Below, piece after piece: positions 2-54,494 of a DNA stretch of 64,000 nt; position 1 is the first letter of the stretch; every line of letters begins with the position of its first letter. The DNA comes from Prevotella sp. E13-17. GTDB lineage: Bacteria > Bacteroidota > Bacteroidia > Bacteroidales > Bacteroidaceae. The position numbers were made by a program, and so were the translations under genes. The notes under the pieces are model-generated. The model did no database searches and was not told the DNA's origin. It saw only the letters and a list, made by a program, of their open reading frames with translations. Location: the NCBI RefSeq assembly GCF_022024035.1, contig NZ_CP091787.1:806001-870000 (forward strand), written 5' to 3'.

Positions 2-853
2 TTGTCGATGGTGACAGATGATGTCTGTCAGGCGGTGTGTGATGCTGATATCGTGCTCCTTTGTTTGCCGGGGTATGCCATCACCAGCGAATTACTCAGG
101 CTCAAGCCTTTCCTCTCTCCACGTGTCTTGCTGGGATCCGTGGTGTGCAGCACGGGTTTCTTCTTTGATGCTTTTGATGTTCTTGGAAAAGAAACACCGT
201 TGTTTGGATTCCAAAGGGTTCCTTTTGTGGCCAGAATCGCTGACTATGGCAAGAAATCGTATATCTGGGGTTATCGTAAAGAGGTGTTTATGGCCACCTC
301 GCATATAGACAGTGATAGCTGCACAAAACTTCAATTGCTATTCGAACAGCTCTTTGGAACACCCGTCAGTCTCTTGCAAAGCTATATGGAGGCGGCGCTG
401 ACCAACAGTAATCCAATCCTTCACACAGGACGATTGTACACCATGTGGAGAGACTGGGATGGACAACCAATGGAGCGTCAGACCTATTTTTATAAGGAAT
501 GGACCGATGAAGCCTCTGAAACCATCATCGCAATGGATCAGGAGTTTTTCCAACTTCTTTCTGCTTTGAATGTCAGAAAGGGCGCAATCAAACCCCTGCT
601 CGAGCACTATGAGTCTGTCGATGCTCAATCAATGACATACAAAATCAGAAGCATTCCTTCGCTGGCAAAGGTGCTCTCTCCAATGATTGAGGTGGAGGGA
701 GGCTTTGTGCCCGATCTTCAGAGTCGCTATTTTATTGAGGATTTCCCCTATGGCTTGTCTCTTATTTGCAAGCTGGCAAAGGATCAGGGTGTGCCGACAC
801 CCATTATGGATAAGATAAATGCCTGGGGAATGAGTATGTGTCAGAATAGGTAA
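2..853 (+). CDS. NAD/NADP octopine/nopaline dehydrogenase family protein (5' partial)
   Basis: The gene runs in from the left edge, so its N-terminal Rossmann glycine motif is missing. What remains begins near the end of the nucleotide-binding domain (LLCLPGYAI). It continues into the all-helical C-terminal domain, where TNSNPILHTGRLY matches the Asn/His-containing catalytic segment of opine and octopine dehydrogenases. Family members reductively join amino groups and keto acids, or reduce related substrates, with NAD(P)H in the cytoplasm. The stop codon is followed directly by the ATG of the flippase gene, so the two are probably co-transcribed. That context suggests the enzyme makes a building block for a surface glycan. 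Family assignment is fairly confident; the substrate is unknown. Confidence 0.7.
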   Translation: MSMVTDDVCQAVCDADIVLLCLPGYAITSELLRLKPFLSPRVLLGSVVCSTGFFFDAFDVLGKETPLFGFQRVPFVARIADYGKKSYIWGYRKEVFMATSHIDSDSCTKLQLLFEQLFGTPVSLLQSYMEAALTNSNPILHTGRLYTMWRDWDGQPMERQTYFYKEWTDEASETIIAMDQEFFQLLSALNVRKGAIKPLLEHYESVDAQSMTYKIRSIPSLAKVLSPMIEVEGGFVPDLQSRYFIEDFPYGLSLICKLAKDQGVPTPIMDKINAWGMSMCQNR

Positions 854-13901: not shown

Positions 13902-14171
13902 ATGAAGACAAAACATATCCTCTACGAGACACAGGGCACCTGCTCTAAACTGATTGACGTCACTGCCGACGAGAACAACATCATCCAGCAGGTGTTCTTT
14001 GTGGGCGGTTGCAATGGCAACCTGCAGGGCGTCAGCAAGTTGGTCACCGGTCAGCACATCGACGATGTCATCAGCAAGCTCAATGGCATTCATTGCGGTG
14101 TGCGCAGCACCTCGTGTCCCGATCAACTCTGTCGTGCGCTGGAACAACTCAAGGCTGCTCCTTTGGCATAA
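13902..14171 (+). CDS. TSCPD domain-containing protein (TIGR03905 family)
   Basis: This 89-residue protein consists of one TSCPD domain. VGGCNGNLQGVSKLVTG and the motif TSCPDQLCRAL near the C-terminus identify it. TSCPD domains occur at the C-terminus of some ribonucleotide reductases and as stand-alone proteins. Clustered Cys residues (the CGVRSTSCPDQLC segment) suggest metal or Fe-S binding, but the stand-alone proteins have no proven role. The gene stands alone between era and a 22-bp-period palindrome array that begins about 50 bp after its stop codon, so its transcript may run through the array. Confidence 0.85.
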   Translation: MKTKHILYETQGTCSKLIDVTADENNIIQQVFFVGGCNGNLQGVSKLVTGQHIDDVISKLNGIHCGVRSTSCPDQLCRALEQLKAAPLA

Positions 14172-14221
14172 CGATATTTGTTAGCCCCTTTTCTCACTTC
14201 ATCCACGCCGTTTGAACAGCC

Positions 14222-14507
14222 AATAGTGGCACTCTCGACGTGCAGTAGCGGTACTCTTGACGTGCAGTAGTGCCACTCTTGACGTGCAAAAGTGGCACTA
14301 TTGTCCTCGTTCTAGCCCCTAGAAATGTCGATTCTAGCCCCTAGATACACCCATTCTAGCCCCTGGATGCCCTGGTTCTAGCCCCTAGAAATACCGTTTA
14401 TAGCCCCTAGAATCAAATTCAAACCATAACTTTTGCAAGTAGAAAGCCCCAGTATTAAGCATCAATAGTGCCACTCTTAGCATGCAAAAGTGCCACTATT
14501 GTTATGC
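14222..14507. repeat. 22-bp-period array of short inverted repeats, locus 1
   Basis: Thirteen 22-bp units run from 14222 to 14507. Nine or ten have an inverted-repeat core whose centre falls every 22 bp: 14229, 14273, 14295, 14317, 14339, 14361, 14383, 14405, 14471, 14493. Two core types occur in the same register: AGTG-S-CACT (units 1, 3, 4, 12, 13) and TTCTAG-CCC-CTAGAA (units 5-9, some imperfect). The other 7-8 bases of each unit vary. Units 10 and 11 are degenerate. It fills most of the gap between the TSCPD gene and the small RNA promoter. I do not recognise it as a known element. Confidence 0.85.
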
Positions 14508-14600: not shown

Positions 14601-14703
14601 GTCAAAAGTTTCTCTTTTGACTATCCGGTAAATCCGAGAGGAGCAAGCCTTTATCGACACTACTCCAATTTAAAAGAGCTATTTCGGTAGCTCTTTTATT
14701 TTT
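14601..14703 (+). ncRNA. Candidate small RNA, about 100 nt
   Basis: The candidate begins within a few bases of the predicted RNA start with a hairpin (GTCAAAAG, loop TTTCT, CTTTTGAC; 14601-14621). A middle section contains GGAG/CTCC, and the RNA ends with a 10-bp terminator stem (14672-14697) followed by T-rich sequence. It has no credible open reading frame. Its 3' end overlaps the last codons of the convergent nuclease gene. I do not recognise a known RNA family. Confidence 0.55.
14672..14703 (+). terminator. Intrinsic terminator of the small RNA (possibly bidirectional)
   Basis: AAAAGAGCTA (14672-14681), loop TTTCGG, TAGCTCTTTT (14688-14697), then ATTTTT. The reverse strand carries a T-run after the same stem, so it could also serve the nuclease gene ending at 14696. 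Confidence 0.75.
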
Positions 14704-15319
14704 CGTATCGTTTCTTTAATAGACGGTAGAATGCTGGGTGAAGCGCAATGTGTCTATCTATGGATACGCCCTTTTTCCCCTTGAAGATAAGAACTTCAAT
14801 GGCATTTGTGTTTATTTCAAAATATTTCTTTATGTCAGCAACAAGCAGACGAGTATTGTAATCAACAGCCATATTTAGAAGTACTCTGTTGCTTTGCCCG
14901 ATAGATTCCACAAGTCTGTTGCTAACGGACGATTTTCCTGTAATCGTTTTAAGGTCGTATAGTTTGTAATTACCCTTTTGTTCAAAAATAAAGTCGGGCG
15001 TTCTGAACCCTTTGGGATTGGGTAGGATGAATACCTTGTAACCATGTTCTACTGCTTTTCTTGCAGCATTCAGCAGGTTGGGGTAGTCGCAGTCTTTTTC
15101 TCCTCCGGTGCTGTAAATGTGTGATTCGCCTTCAATAGGTGTAAATGATGGATGCCCAATGATTAGTTTTAGCTGATTAATGAAACCAGCTCCGTGACAG
15201 ATTTGTAAATCTTTTAACAGAGTGTCAATGTCGTAATAGGGCGTATTCTCGCATGCCAACAAGCATGCAATCTCTTCGGATATGCTTTCCTCTCGTTCTA
15301 TGATTTCGGCTTCAGTCAC
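14696..15319 (-). CDS. Orphan PD-(D/E)xK nuclease, CdiA C-terminal tRNase-like
   Basis: The 207-residue protein has a C-terminal half resembling the tRNA-nuclease domain at the end of some CdiA toxins. GFRTPDFIFEQ (Asp109) and YDLKT (Asp122, Lys124) form a PD...DxK active site, followed by SNRLVESIGQSNRVLL. The N-terminal half is acidic and helical with no signal peptide. The start codon is GTG; no in-frame ATG exists before the domain, and the consensus promoter at 15342-15373 places the RNA start about 16 nt upstream. No immunity gene, secretion protein or phage gene adjoins it. A small RNA gene converges on its 3' end. Whether it is a toxin, a defence nuclease or a remnant is unknown. Confidence 0.55.
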   Translation of the reverse strand: MTEAEIIEREESISEEIACLLACENTPYYDIDTLLKDLQICHGAGFINQLKLIIGHPSFTPIEGESHIYSTGGEKDCDYPNLLNAARKAVEHGYKVFILPNPKGFRTPDFIFEQKGNYKLYDLKTITGKSSVSNRLVESIGQSNRVLLNMAVDYNTRLLVADIKKYFEINTNAIEVLIFKGKKGVSIDRHIALHPAFYRLLKKRYEK

Positions 15320-51856: not shown

Positions 51857-52738
51857 ATGAATCATCGTATTACTGAAGGCTATATGCCGTTTCTGGACTA
51901 TCAGACCTACTATCGCGTTGTGGGCGAGCCATCTGACAAAACACCGCTGTTGCTGCTGCATGGCGGCCCGGGCAGCACACATAATTATTTTGAGATGCTC
52001 GACTGCTTGGCCGACACGGGGCGGCAGGTCATTTCATACGATCAAATAGGCTGTGGCAACTCTTACCTTGACGGACACCCGGAGTTGTGGACTTTGCAGA
52101 CGTGGATGGACGAACTCATGGCTATCCGCGAGTATCTTCATCTGGACGAGGTGCATCTTCTCGGACAGTCGTGGGGCGCCATGCTGGCCATTGCTTATGT
52201 CATTGACCAAAGGCCAAAGGGAGTGAAGTCGCTGATTCTTTCATCGGGCCATGCCTCCAGTTCGCTCTGGGCCAGTGAGCAACATCGACTCATCACCTAT
52301 CTGTCGGAAGCAGATCAAACTGCTATCCGCAACGCTGAGGCTACTGGCGATTGGGATAATCCAGACTACCTGCGTGCCAACGAACACTATTTCGATTGCT
52401 ATGTGACCAGCACCGACGCGCTCTCGCCCGAGTGCCTGACGCGCCCAAAACGTACTGGCAAAGAGGCCTATCTGTATGGGTGGGGCCCCAACGAATATCA
52501 GCCTTTGGGTAGCCTGAAAGACTTTGAATATACGGACAAGTTGAACCAAATCATCCAGCCAACGCTGATCTGTAGTGGTACCCAAGACATCTGCACGCCC
52601 GTCGTAGCAGCCTCGCTCTACGAGCATATCCTCAACAGTCGCTGGCACCTGTTCCGCCGTTCGCGCCACATGTGTTTCGTCGATGCCCACAGAGAGTACT
52701 GTCAGGTGCTGACAGCGTGGCTGGATGAGCAAGATTGA
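51857..52738 (+). CDS. Proline iminopeptidase-family alpha/beta hydrolase
   Basis: The 293-residue cytoplasmic protein is an alpha/beta hydrolase of the S33 family. LLLLHGGPGSTHNYF holds the oxyanion loop, GQSWGAM has the nucleophile Ser105, and SRHMCFVDAHREY probably supplies the catalytic His. Family members release N-terminal Pro or other residues from peptides (tricorn-interacting factor F1-like), or hydrolyse small amides. No signal peptide is visible. It is a single gene. A palindrome array begins about 50 bp after its stop codon, as at the other array locus. Confidence 0.85.
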   Translation: MNHRITEGYMPFLDYQTYYRVVGEPSDKTPLLLLHGGPGSTHNYFEMLDCLADTGRQVISYDQIGCGNSYLDGHPELWTLQTWMDELMAIREYLHLDEVHLLGQSWGAMLAIAYVIDQRPKGVKSLILSSGHASSSLWASEQHRLITYLSEADQTAIRNAEATGDWDNPDYLRANEHYFDCYVTSTDALSPECLTRPKRTGKEAYLYGWGPNEYQPLGSLKDFEYTDKLNQIIQPTLICSGTQDICTPVVAASLYEHILNSRWHLFRRSRHMCFVDAHREYCQVLTAWLDEQD

Positions 52739-52788
52739 CCCTTCGTTTATTAACCTGTTTACCCTCCCAAAGTGCTTGTATTGCATGA

Positions 52789-53008
52789 CTAAAACGGCTG
52801 TTTCGTGTAGCAACAGTGGCGGTGTTGTGATGCAATACGGTAACTATTGGGTTGAATCCAGGGGCTGGAATACCCTAATCCAGGGGCTGGACGATTGCTT
52901 TCCAAGGGCTAGACAGTTGCATTCCAGGGGCTAGAATCCACCAAGCCAGGGGCTGGAACGAGTGTAAAAGCTATGCTGTTGATGTGTAAAAGTGATGCTC
53001 TTCTCCTC
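52789..53008. repeat. 22-bp-period array of short inverted repeats, locus 2
   Basis: Ten 22-bp units run from 52789. The inverted-repeat centres of units 2-10 fall exactly at 52819, 52841, 52863, 52885, 52907, 52929, 52951, 52973 and 52995. The arms differ: CAACA/TGTTG, CAATA/TATTG, then five units of TTCCAG-GGG-CTGGAA type (some with mismatches), then AAAAGC/GCTGTT type. Unit 1 (AAAC-GGCT-GTTT) is half a base off. The TTCYAG core is the counterpart of the core at 14310-14413. I know no element of this kind. Confidence 0.85.
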
Positions 53009-53146: not shown

Positions 53147-53177
53147 TTTGCGTATCATAATTAATTTTGTAATTTTG
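53147..53177 (+). promoter_or_regulatory. Consensus promoter of the GH76 gene
   Basis: TTTG (53147-53150), 19 bp, TAATTTTG (53170-53177). The predicted RNA start near 53184 excludes the longer open frame starting at 53052. Confidence 0.78.
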
Positions 53178-53207
53178 TGCCCTCAATTTATATATATGCT
53201 AAAAACA

Positions 53208-54494
53208 ATGAAACACCTAACATTACTTTTCTTTTGCCTTATGGCATGGAGCCATGTTAATGCCCAAGTGAGCATTACTTACAACAACGAAGCACAGTGG
53301 AAAACCTACGATGACTTTAATGCCGTATTCCTTGACAGTGACGAGTTTATTTATAAAGCAGACACCAAACAGGCACGAGCTGACCACCGCGGCAACGGCT
53401 ATCGCGACAACGACGTCTCGGGATGTGCTGCCGCCATCTGGTGCCAGGCCATCTATTACGATATGGTGGTCAATGCCTATAATCGTGCTAAGGCCGAGGG
53501 TGACAAGGCGCGCATGAAGAAGTACAAGAAACTGCACGATAAAATATATAATGGTGAAAAGTCACACTATGTGAACTTTGATTTCGACAACCCCAGTACG
53601 AATAATGGCTGGTTTGTCTATGACGACATCATGTGGTGGACAGGTGCCTTGGCACGTGCTTATGCAACTTTTGGAAAATCAGAGTATCTGAAATACTCGG
53701 AGATGAGCTTTTGCCGTGTGTGGTATGGTTCTGAAAAAGTAGGCGATGACGGCTCTTATGCCGATCCTGCCCGCTTTGAAGGCAAGGCCGGCGGCGGTAT
53801 GTTCTGGGAATGGCAGCCCATTGACCACGCTCGTCCTCACCAACCGGGTGACTTCCGTTCGGCTTGCATCAACTTCCCAACAGTTATTGCCGCTTGCCAT
53901 CTCTATCAGTTGGTACCAGAGGGGCGCACACCATCTACAGCGGCACGTCCTACGTATCAGACGAAAGCCTGGTATCTGGAAAAAGCTAAGGAAGTGTATG
54001 CATGGGCAGATAAAGTGCTCGTCGATGCCAACGGACGTGTGGCAGATGGTATTCATGGTGGTGCACCAGGTTTCAAAGATCACCTGTACAATCAGGCAAC
54101 CTACATCGGTGCCAGCTGCATGCTCTATCAGTTGACTCAAGATGCCAGCTACCTGACAAAGGCACAGCGCGCTGCCGACTATATCATAGATCACATGTGC
54201 ACCAAATCCATCCTCGACTTTGAAAAAGGTTATGAGCAGGGTGTCTATGCGGCCATCTATGCACAGTATATCAAAATGCTGGTTTATGATTGTGGCTTGG
54301 ATGACGTGGCGAAGCAGAAATACCTGTCACACATTCAGATTAATCTGCAGAGTGCATATGCTAATATGGACAAGACTCGTGGCATCCAGATGGGTAACTT
54401 CGCAAAGAAGACCAGCAAGAACGATGTTGTCGAGAGCTATGGTGCCAGTGGTATGCCAGCCCTCATGCTGATGTTCCCTGCAGAGAAGAAATAA
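53208..54494 (+). CDS. Glycoside hydrolase family 76 (alpha-1,6-mannanase-like)
   Basis: GH76 enzymes cut alpha-1,6-mannan backbones such as fungal cell-wall mannan. The 428-residue exported protein (MKHLTLLFFCLMAWSHVNAQ) folds as an alpha-alpha toroid. YDDIMWWTGALARAY contains the adjacent catalytic aspartates (Asp139, Asp140) of the family. GKAGGGMFWEW and the EKGYEQGVYAAIYAQYI segment fit later helices. It is a single gene with its own promoter and a downstream terminator. ATG 53196 (MLKTMKHL) is an alternative start. No SusC/SusD or GH92 gene is nearby. Confidence 0.85.
   Translation: MKHLTLLFFCLMAWSHVNAQVSITYNNEAQWKTYDDFNAVFLDSDEFIYKADTKQARADHRGNGYRDNDVSGCAAAIWCQAIYYDMVVNAYNRAKAEGDKARMKKYKKLHDKIYNGEKSHYVNFDFDNPSTNNGWFVYDDIMWWTGALARAYATFGKSEYLKYSEMSFCRVWYGSEKVGDDGSYADPARFEGKAGGGMFWEWQPIDHARPHQPGDFRSACINFPTVIAACHLYQLVPEGRTPSTAARPTYQTKAWYLEKAKEVYAWADKVLVDANGRVADGIHGGAPGFKDHLYNQATYIGASCMLYQLTQDASYLTKAQRAADYIIDHMCTKSILDFEKGYEQGVYAAIYAQYIKMLVYDCGLDDVAKQKYLSHIQINLQSAYANMDKTRGIQMGNFAKKTSKNDVVESYGASGMPALMLMFPAEKK

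Follow-up and report, generated by a model that had tools for sequence, protein, structure and literature searches.

A strict 22-bp lattice of palindromic units in intergenic DNA of Prevotella sp. E13-17, tentatively read as REP/BIME-like recognition arrays of Y1 transposases

Two arrays of palindromic units in the 64,000-nucleotide stretch of Prevotella sp. E13-17 DNA analysed here (the window) belong to a large intergenic set that keeps a pitch of exactly 22 bp. Judged from the sequences, the lattice, its dispersal, the turnover of its units and the differences between species in whole blocks are established, and in one congener (G016) only, genes for Y1 transposases are bracketed by arrays. 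The explanation that we favour, tentatively and at slightly short of an even chance, is that these are REP/BIME-like recognition arrays of Y1 (HUH) transposases of the IS200/RAYT kind, set out on a strict 22-bp lattice. Each palindromic unit would be one site read by the transposase, the units being lined up every 22 bp, or two helical turns of DNA; solo arrays would be scattered through intergenic DNA, rarely where genes diverge, and would have spread partly as passengers of a DDE-type MITE. Arrays would gain and lose entire 22-bp units, close species would come to differ by whole blocks of another unit type, through exchange or differential loss from composites, and the arrays in the window would be old members kept in place. 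We infer the function of the window's arrays, a Y1 protein reading the sites in this species and what the lattice does on DNA, as we do the step from G016 to the window's species. The main rival is a lattice of sites for a host protein, and a functionless MITE-borne minisatellite comes next.

Array 2 has nine dyad centres, at 52819, 52841 and onwards to 52995, in steps of exactly 22 bp when read from the sequence and the unit table, as the first-pass annotation had stated. In a letter-blind dyad score, which sums complementary matches at k = 2..8 over eight centres spaced p (maximum 56), p = 22 gave 41/56 for array 1 (14229) and 40/56 for array 2 (52819); other periods from 14 to 44 stayed at or below 32 anywhere in the window, leaving 22 as the sole standout period besides its harmonics 33 and 44. 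Period 22 was also called by TRF at both arrays. The grid carries two kinds of unit, a flank unit (A, CAAWA-n7-TWTTG) and a core unit (B, TTCYAG-SSS-CTRGAA), with the TTCYAG core present in both arrays. The arms said earlier to change along array 2 are present, though as parts of distinct unit types, flank and core. Array 2 is made up of CAAWA-n7-TWTTG-like left flank units (52767..52849, centres 52775, 52797, 52819 and 52841), five core units (ATCCAG-GGG-CTGGAA and the like; 52856..52958, centres 52863, 52885, 52907, 52929 and 52951), all with GGG at the centre on the + strand, and right flank units (TAAAA-n7-...; 52965..53003, centres 52973 and 52995), with at least two flank units on each side. 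Array 1 runs from four left flank units with a AGTGGCACT core (14221..14303, centres 14229, 14251, 14273 and 14295) through five core units TTCTAG-CCC-CTAGAA (14310..14412, centres 14317-14405) to about three further flank units (14419..14501, last centre 14493).

As had also been noticed at first reading, each array begins about 50 bp past the stop of a + strand gene, the stops being at 52738 and 14171. The gene upstream of array 2 encodes a proline iminopeptidase (51857..52738, +; NCBIfam NF045945, 460.5 bits) and is the conserved neighbour of the array in Prevotella sp. RUI122 and Xylanibacter brevis as well, and that upstream of array 1 has a TSCPD domain (13902..14171, +; TIGR03905, 105.5 bits). 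Downstream of array 2 stands a GH76 family gene (53196..54494, +; PF03663, E 9e-20 for 53199-54494; start codon placed by eye), preceded at 53162-53178 by TAATTTTGTAATTTTG, which we take to resemble the Bacteroidetes -7 promoter element TAnnTTTG. An ORF adjoining array 1 (14696-15319, -) has a weak, below-threshold match to CdiA_C (PF18451, 23.6 of 26.6 bits). Array positions fixed genus-wide are ruled out by array-free loci: three congener counterparts of the array 2 locus have no array, and none stands out at 11 counterparts of the array 1 locus (10 congeners and one genome of another family), although RUI122 does carry one there. A further array 2 counterpart, in another family (L077), scored 25 against at most 24.

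The genome of the window (G000; 3,454,626 bp, one contig) contains the core palindrome TTCYAGSSSCTRGAA, at no more than one mismatch, at 187 sites, as against 0 for the reversed-pattern control. Stretches around the listed pattern hits, eight gap stretches and the window, together about 0.6 Mb of the 3.45 Mb, yielded 79 parsed arrays with five core units in 68, four in 10 and three in 1; of the 357 sites with up to two mismatches in the parsed stretches, 8 lie off an array grid. Overall, 92 array places are known, with a mean gap of 37.6 kb and a gap CV of 0.70. A simple ORF caller placed all 78 arrays that have readable flanks between genes, none overlapping one, and among the 70 with both neighbours known the flanking genes are in tandem at 45, convergent at 18 and divergent at 7. 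On a single grid an array combines about three to four A units, core units that usually number five, and further A or C units, the C unit (TTCTAG-ACT/AGT-CTAGAA) having the same arms as B and standing in phase or 11 bp off the grid. Across 42 unrelated arrays, 177 of the 199 core units have GGG or CCC in the middle, which gives the units an orientation; CCCGG (23 of the 79 arrays) and its reverse complement CCGGG (14) are the commonest orders, with other orders in 42. The grid seen at first reading is borne out as real and genome-wide, and it is kept while sequences change.

A restriction of the arrays to one half of the chromosome was considered and withdrawn. For 38 CCCGG-type arrays, the best two-point orientation split (score 18) falls at 25 kb-2.25 Mb and the sampled GC-skew split at 25 kb-1.80 Mb; their orientation may follow the direction of replication. 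In one array (G000:C1:2334498) the spacers of adjacent core units are near-identical (TGAAGTA twice, TCAGGTA and TCAAGTA), the mark of recent tandem growth by 22-bp units.

Elsewhere, in 35 congeners and 24 genomes from the rest of the order, the TTCYAG core is found at 0-10 sites per genome, with 0-12 for the control. In stretches scanned without regard to letters, period 22 stood out in G010, G028 and G034, and less strongly in G016, with the palindromes AAAAATAAWTTATTTTT and TAAAAGGTWACCTTTTR in G010, AACAAWGTTAWTAACWTTGTT and TAAAATAGGCTATTTTA in G028, TGATGAATCATTCATCA and CAAAACAAGTTGTTTTG in G034, and YAATYTGMRTCARATTR in G016; the G028 palindrome has 169 sites in its own genome (control 0) and none in that of the window. 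The arms are private to each species and the 22-bp pitch is common. Sampled stretches of G009, G019, G020, G033 and G003 (58-100 kb each) and of G007 (20 kb) held no clear array, the G004 sample gave one equivocal peak in the dyad scan, and of two genomes from other families G043 had no array and the AT-rich G037 one equivocal peak. In G051, from another family of the same order, a ACAAAGTTTTAAACTTTGT-like palindrome has 38 sites against 10 for the control, and this is possibly another array-bearing lineage. An exact search of a public genome collection for two adjacent GGG-centred B units returned 45 stretches, from Xylanibacter brevis ATCC 19188, Prevotella sp. RUI122 and one Alloprevotella MAG, in a collection that may leave out records of the window's own genome. 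The arrays coincide with assembly breaks in RUI122, where five MAG contigs (L244, L252, L256, L257 and L266; G061:C12, C14, C30, C34 and C36) start about 140-220 bp before an array unit.

The first-pass annotation had suggested testing for a shared trans factor, and such a factor is plausible in view of the Y1 transposase genes that arrays bracket in G016. Y1 (PF01797) genes were listed in 60 genomes and 20 loci fetched. Of the 11 Y1 genes in array-bearing genomes, five have an array no more than about 0.7 kb away (G016 3/3, G000 1/3, G034 1/2, G010 0/2 and G028 0/1), and 11 Y1 loci of other congeners have no clear array. The three genes of G016 sit in homologous units of about 1.1-1.2 kb, with arrays on both sides at L307 and L321 and on one side at L306. 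The dyad score reaches 21 on both sides at L307 (other periods 20 and 18) and 21 on one side at L309 of G034 (20 for other periods); beside L303, L306 and L321, period 22 is not above other periods, and at L303 the evidence for an array is five B units at 22-bp steps. Solo and Y1-flanking arrays of G016 have a common core, TGCGTCA/TGACGCA, matched at 6 or more of 7 letters by 10 of 14 solo units and 19 of 25 Y1-flanking units, with a background of 0.3% of random positions. In the window's genome, a RAYT-like gene lies about 150 bp from a young array, on one side, and the other two Y1 genes are without an array. Its protein scores 65.7 bits against NF047646 (REP-associated tyrosine transposase), under the cutoff of 80, and has the motifs NHVH and YIHQNP, as in TnpA subclass 2.6, the Bacteroidetes genes of which are reported to be flanked by 'atypical' structures without a GTAG foot, with copies elsewhere (PMC6006769). 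The Y1 proteins of G016 reach 38 and 40 bits with the NCBIfam IS200/IS605 model, under its cutoff of 55, and their motif Y---Q--HH resembles subclass 1.2, for which the same source gives terminal structures as generally absent (PMC6006769).

What speaks for reading by a Y1 protein is thus the high copy number, the intergenic placement, the oriented units and the private arms on a common pitch, together with in-phase unit differences, the Y1 genes beside arrays in G016 and the RAYT-like gene of the window's genome. Against it, 6 of the 11 Y1 genes of array-bearing genomes lie away from arrays, and the three of G016 are homologous copies; arrays are so many in the window's genome that one of its three Y1 genes may adjoin one by chance; and the Y1 genes of the two genomes resemble different subclasses. 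A conserved tetranucleotide foot also counts against it by its absence: no GTAG or CGTC foot stands out in the 42 arrays, where positions 8-10 outside the centre are only weakly biased, and hairpin stability in array 2 is ordinary.

The orthologues of array 2 in RUI122 and X. brevis align with it without gaps, behind the same gene and at the same grid positions, and in both of them all five core units are of type C (TTCTAG-ACT/AGT-CTAGAA) as opposed to TTCCAG-GGG-CTGGAA (B) in the window's genome. Between the latter and RUI122, 42/60 arm, 3/15 centre and 7/28 spacer positions are identical, with flanking DNA at 86% and 97%, and between RUI122 and X. brevis the figures are 52/60, 15/15 and 16/28. 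At the array 1 locus RUI122 has five C units opposite, then two B units further on. From 83 block pairs we kept 43 orthologous locus pairs (28 loci of the window's genome), leaving out any with flanks less than 80% identical, any second block of a pair and any with under three units in common. The type was the same in 19 pairs with conserved spacers and in 14 with diverged spacers, 2 pairs were mixed, the relative's array being a composite of C and B units, and most centres differed in 8, which represent 6 loci. Of these 8, a unit-by-unit reading assigns a B versus C difference to 3, all at the two window arrays; at locus 445543 five B units face a composite with four units each of C and B, and 524841, 750409 and 2259566 (4 pairs) have a change of orientation or centre within B only. 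A concerted type switch at many loci was therefore rejected, since that reading leaves a true B/C change at the two window arrays.

In X. brevis and RUI122, composite arrays (L273, L272 and L258) have eight units each, four or five of type C and then B on one grid, and face arrays of five units in the window's genome. Given that such composites exist, differential loss of one block is a simple alternative to direct exchange, array 2 included, whose type difference could be explained by either. Arrays also differ between species by 22 and 66 bp, whole units that keep the phase. Counts of B sites (no more than one mismatch; 187 in the window's genome, 92 in X. brevis and 105 in RUI122) and of C sites (no more than two mismatches; 113, 253 and 169), which overlap in that a TTCTAG-GGG unit is two mismatches from C, fit a shift of the commoner type between species. 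At three further pairs (631025~L241, 782611~L261 and 3319383~L248), array cores and spacers are identical or nearly so across species with flanks at 81-86%, and a recent exchange of array DNA between species is possible there.

The chief alternative holds that the arrays are a lattice of operator-like sites for a dimeric DNA-binding protein, host or element-coded, which assembles every two helical turns and serves chromosome organisation, supercoiling or transcription insulation between genes, site and factor co-evolving so that arms become private. We regard this as possible, if on the unlikely side. It is favoured by the exact pitch, by the spread of the 92 places and by array 2, all five units of which differ in type from both relatives. 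The 14 same-type pairs with diverged spacers point the same way, keeping 174/180 centre and 603/714 arm positions as against 177/315 in spacers, although the relatives were picked by a B-type pattern and the units by their arms, so that conservation of arms and centres is partly ascertained and that of the core inflated. Other observations weigh against a host lattice: a candidate protein was not found, arrays are patchy among congeners, with none clear in six sampled genomes, and the 3 and 11 array-free loci leave no fixed essential positions. A further proposal, of a new class of chromosomal element in Prevotellaceae, strikes us as rather doubtful: its 22-bp lattice would be constant across several species, while the recognised sequence would be private to each and could be swapped at one locus in a block of five units, because the sites would follow a fast-evolving trans protein (Y1 or a domesticated derivative) that assembles on the lattice and has a role in the host chromosome. 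This idea lost ground when the genuine B/C differences were narrowed down to the two arrays of the window, which differential loss can explain.

The Y1 reading must also accommodate a young subfamily with another mode of movement. A gap-free alignment of about 300 bp takes in all 38 arrays of CCCGG or CCGGG order; identity to the consensus is 83% or more in 25 and falls to 45% among the others. BLAST of the genome with one young copy gave 46 matches, 34 of them 88-100% identical. Among 30 loci scanned, nine copies have both MITE ends, GGCTCAAGCG or GGGTCAAGCG at one and TGAGCC at the other, at a distance of 365-809 bp (about 510 bp in several), with the terminal inverted repeat GGCTCA/TGAGCC seen in this young subfamily. 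An 8-bp target duplication is perfect in five of the nine, matches at 7 of 8 letters in one and has no match in three. Given the shared ends and the target duplications, the young arrays travelled inside a MITE. Duplications of 8 bp belong to DDE, not HUH, chemistry, and the movement of young copies with them counts against the Y1 reading. No transposase was seen when an autonomous DDE partner was sought through a left-end search of the genome and a reading of L202 and L205, two copies of the MITE end without an array. Some copies at the MITE loci L166, L163, L170, L165 and L185 are without an array, and some MITE copies have a second left module holding AAAGGTCTC, which resembles the BrickBuilt/ISPg terminal repeats of PMC4596501.

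The split into a related subfamily of 37 arrays and a rest of 42 was set by the analyst, and clustering at 0.6 or above gives 36 for the former. The 42, both window arrays among them, are nearly unrelated outside their units. In 33 five-unit arrays the four inner spacers match at 0.2516 per site between arrays, and 4 pairs match at 16 or more of 28 positions versus 0.33 expected, a small excess over random; the longest run common to any two of 41 diverged arrays is 29 bp, and runs of at least 21 bp occur in 4 of 820 pairs. Spacer exchange among the 42 was rejected, the spacers being close to random and the shared runs short.

That the arrays are a functionless minisatellite, palindromic repeats grown by slippage in non-autonomous elements and carried by DDE transposases, draws support from this young subfamily, its high identity, terminal repeats and target duplications, and from the near-identical neighbouring units of array 2334498, and it has a precedent in BrickBuilt, a 23-nt minisatellite in a MITE (PMC4596501). 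It nevertheless seems to us distinctly unlikely for the whole set: the 42 diverged arrays have at most short runs in common, but core, pitch and, in most, the number of core units (five) are retained; unit centre and orientation persist where spacers have diverged; MITE-type ends (terminal inverted repeat and target duplication) were not seen around either window array when the flanks were inspected by eye; and the same lattice recurs in other species with unrelated palindromes.

The first-pass annotation had held that the arms change on both sides together, as in RNA stems, and had proposed a check for compensatory excess, which we ran over the 42 diverged arrays (199 core and 297 flank units, 20 symmetric pairs, 2000 shuffles). 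Excess complementarity at nominal p < 0.05 appeared in 3 of the 20 pairs, and in one, flank ±1 (0.478 vs 0.351 in shuffles, p = 0.0005), after correction for 20 tests; core ±4 (0.603 vs 0.508, p = 0.0035) and flank ±8 (0.468 vs 0.413, p = 0.02) are nominal only. The variable flank pair ±5 has no covariation in these arrays (0.374 vs 0.386 expected), core ±7 falls short of the value expected (0.322 vs 0.403), and at the core centre (±1) 5.5% of units are symmetric vs 45.5% in shuffles. The compensatory excess is thus mostly absent and the paired changes were not upheld. Array 2 folds no better than shuffles, as RNA on either strand (z +0.68 and -0.80) or as DNA (z +0.70). From so little covariation and no excess folding it follows that half-sites are for the most part conserved individually, as sites for a protein would be; this, with inner spacers near random between arrays, is also what a host-protein lattice would have. 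RNA hairpin arrays kept by base-pair covariation, whether 3' UTR stabilisers or a structured non-coding RNA, could draw on the palindromic units, the scarcity of arrays between divergent genes and the excess at flank ±1 and, weakly, core ±4, but are highly improbable, an array of RNA stems being rejected on the ordinary folding of array 2 and the mostly absent compensatory changes, with unit orientation mixed within arrays and no Rfam match in the window at gathering thresholds.

The arrays form a natural series in which the geometry is fixed and the recognised sequence differs between close species, at array 2 even at the same locus, which allows a direct test of whether a protein that recognises DNA co-evolves with its dozens of sites in the genome. 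If the Y1 reading is right, the poorly characterised Bacteroidetes Y1 transposases of subclasses 1.2 and 2.6 would gain a concrete candidate substrate. The set also draws attention to a repeat that is found at assembly breaks.

Several known systems share features with the lattice. CRISPR arrays are alike in having a palindromic repeat that alternates regularly with a variable spacer, but here a 15-bp core is followed by a 7-bp spacer, with dozens of arrays per genome and mostly five core units in each. The sites of Noc, SlmA and MatP are tens of dispersed palindromes, each a single site with one conserved sequence; the dispersal is similar, whereas the present sites form phased arrays with changing arms. 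The openly available main texts covered by the literature searches did not describe any lattice of palindromes at 22 bp in Bacteroidales. The earlier remark that no described element has these properties is partly right; two systems are close kin (PMC6006769, PMC4596501). REP/BIME elements with TnpA-REP (RAYT), in particular subclass 2.6 or RAYT group 5 (PMC6006769; REP families in PMC3733652), are likewise high-copy extragenic palindromes in oriented, species-private clusters, with copies beside a Y1 gene, as in G016 and on one side in the window's genome, and, in subclass 2.6, without a GTAG foot (PMC6006769). They are unlike the present arrays in the strict 22-bp lattice, for which the consulted parts of PMC6006769 and PMC3733652 have no counterpart, and in the usual five core units, the oriented 3-bp centre, the ordinary hairpin stability of array 2 and the block differences of unit type at one locus. 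BrickBuilt of Porphyromonas gingivalis, a 23-nt repeat minisatellite that is always intergenic and has 19 copies in ATCC 33277, matches the arrays in being from Bacteroidales and in its tandem units of about two helical turns within a MITE with short terminal inverted repeats (PMC4596501). Its repeats are direct, of one consensus and without spacers (PMC4596501), whereas those described here are palindromic 22-bp units of several types with nearly random spacers, in 79 or more arrays, on a pitch that is common to congeners with other sequences.
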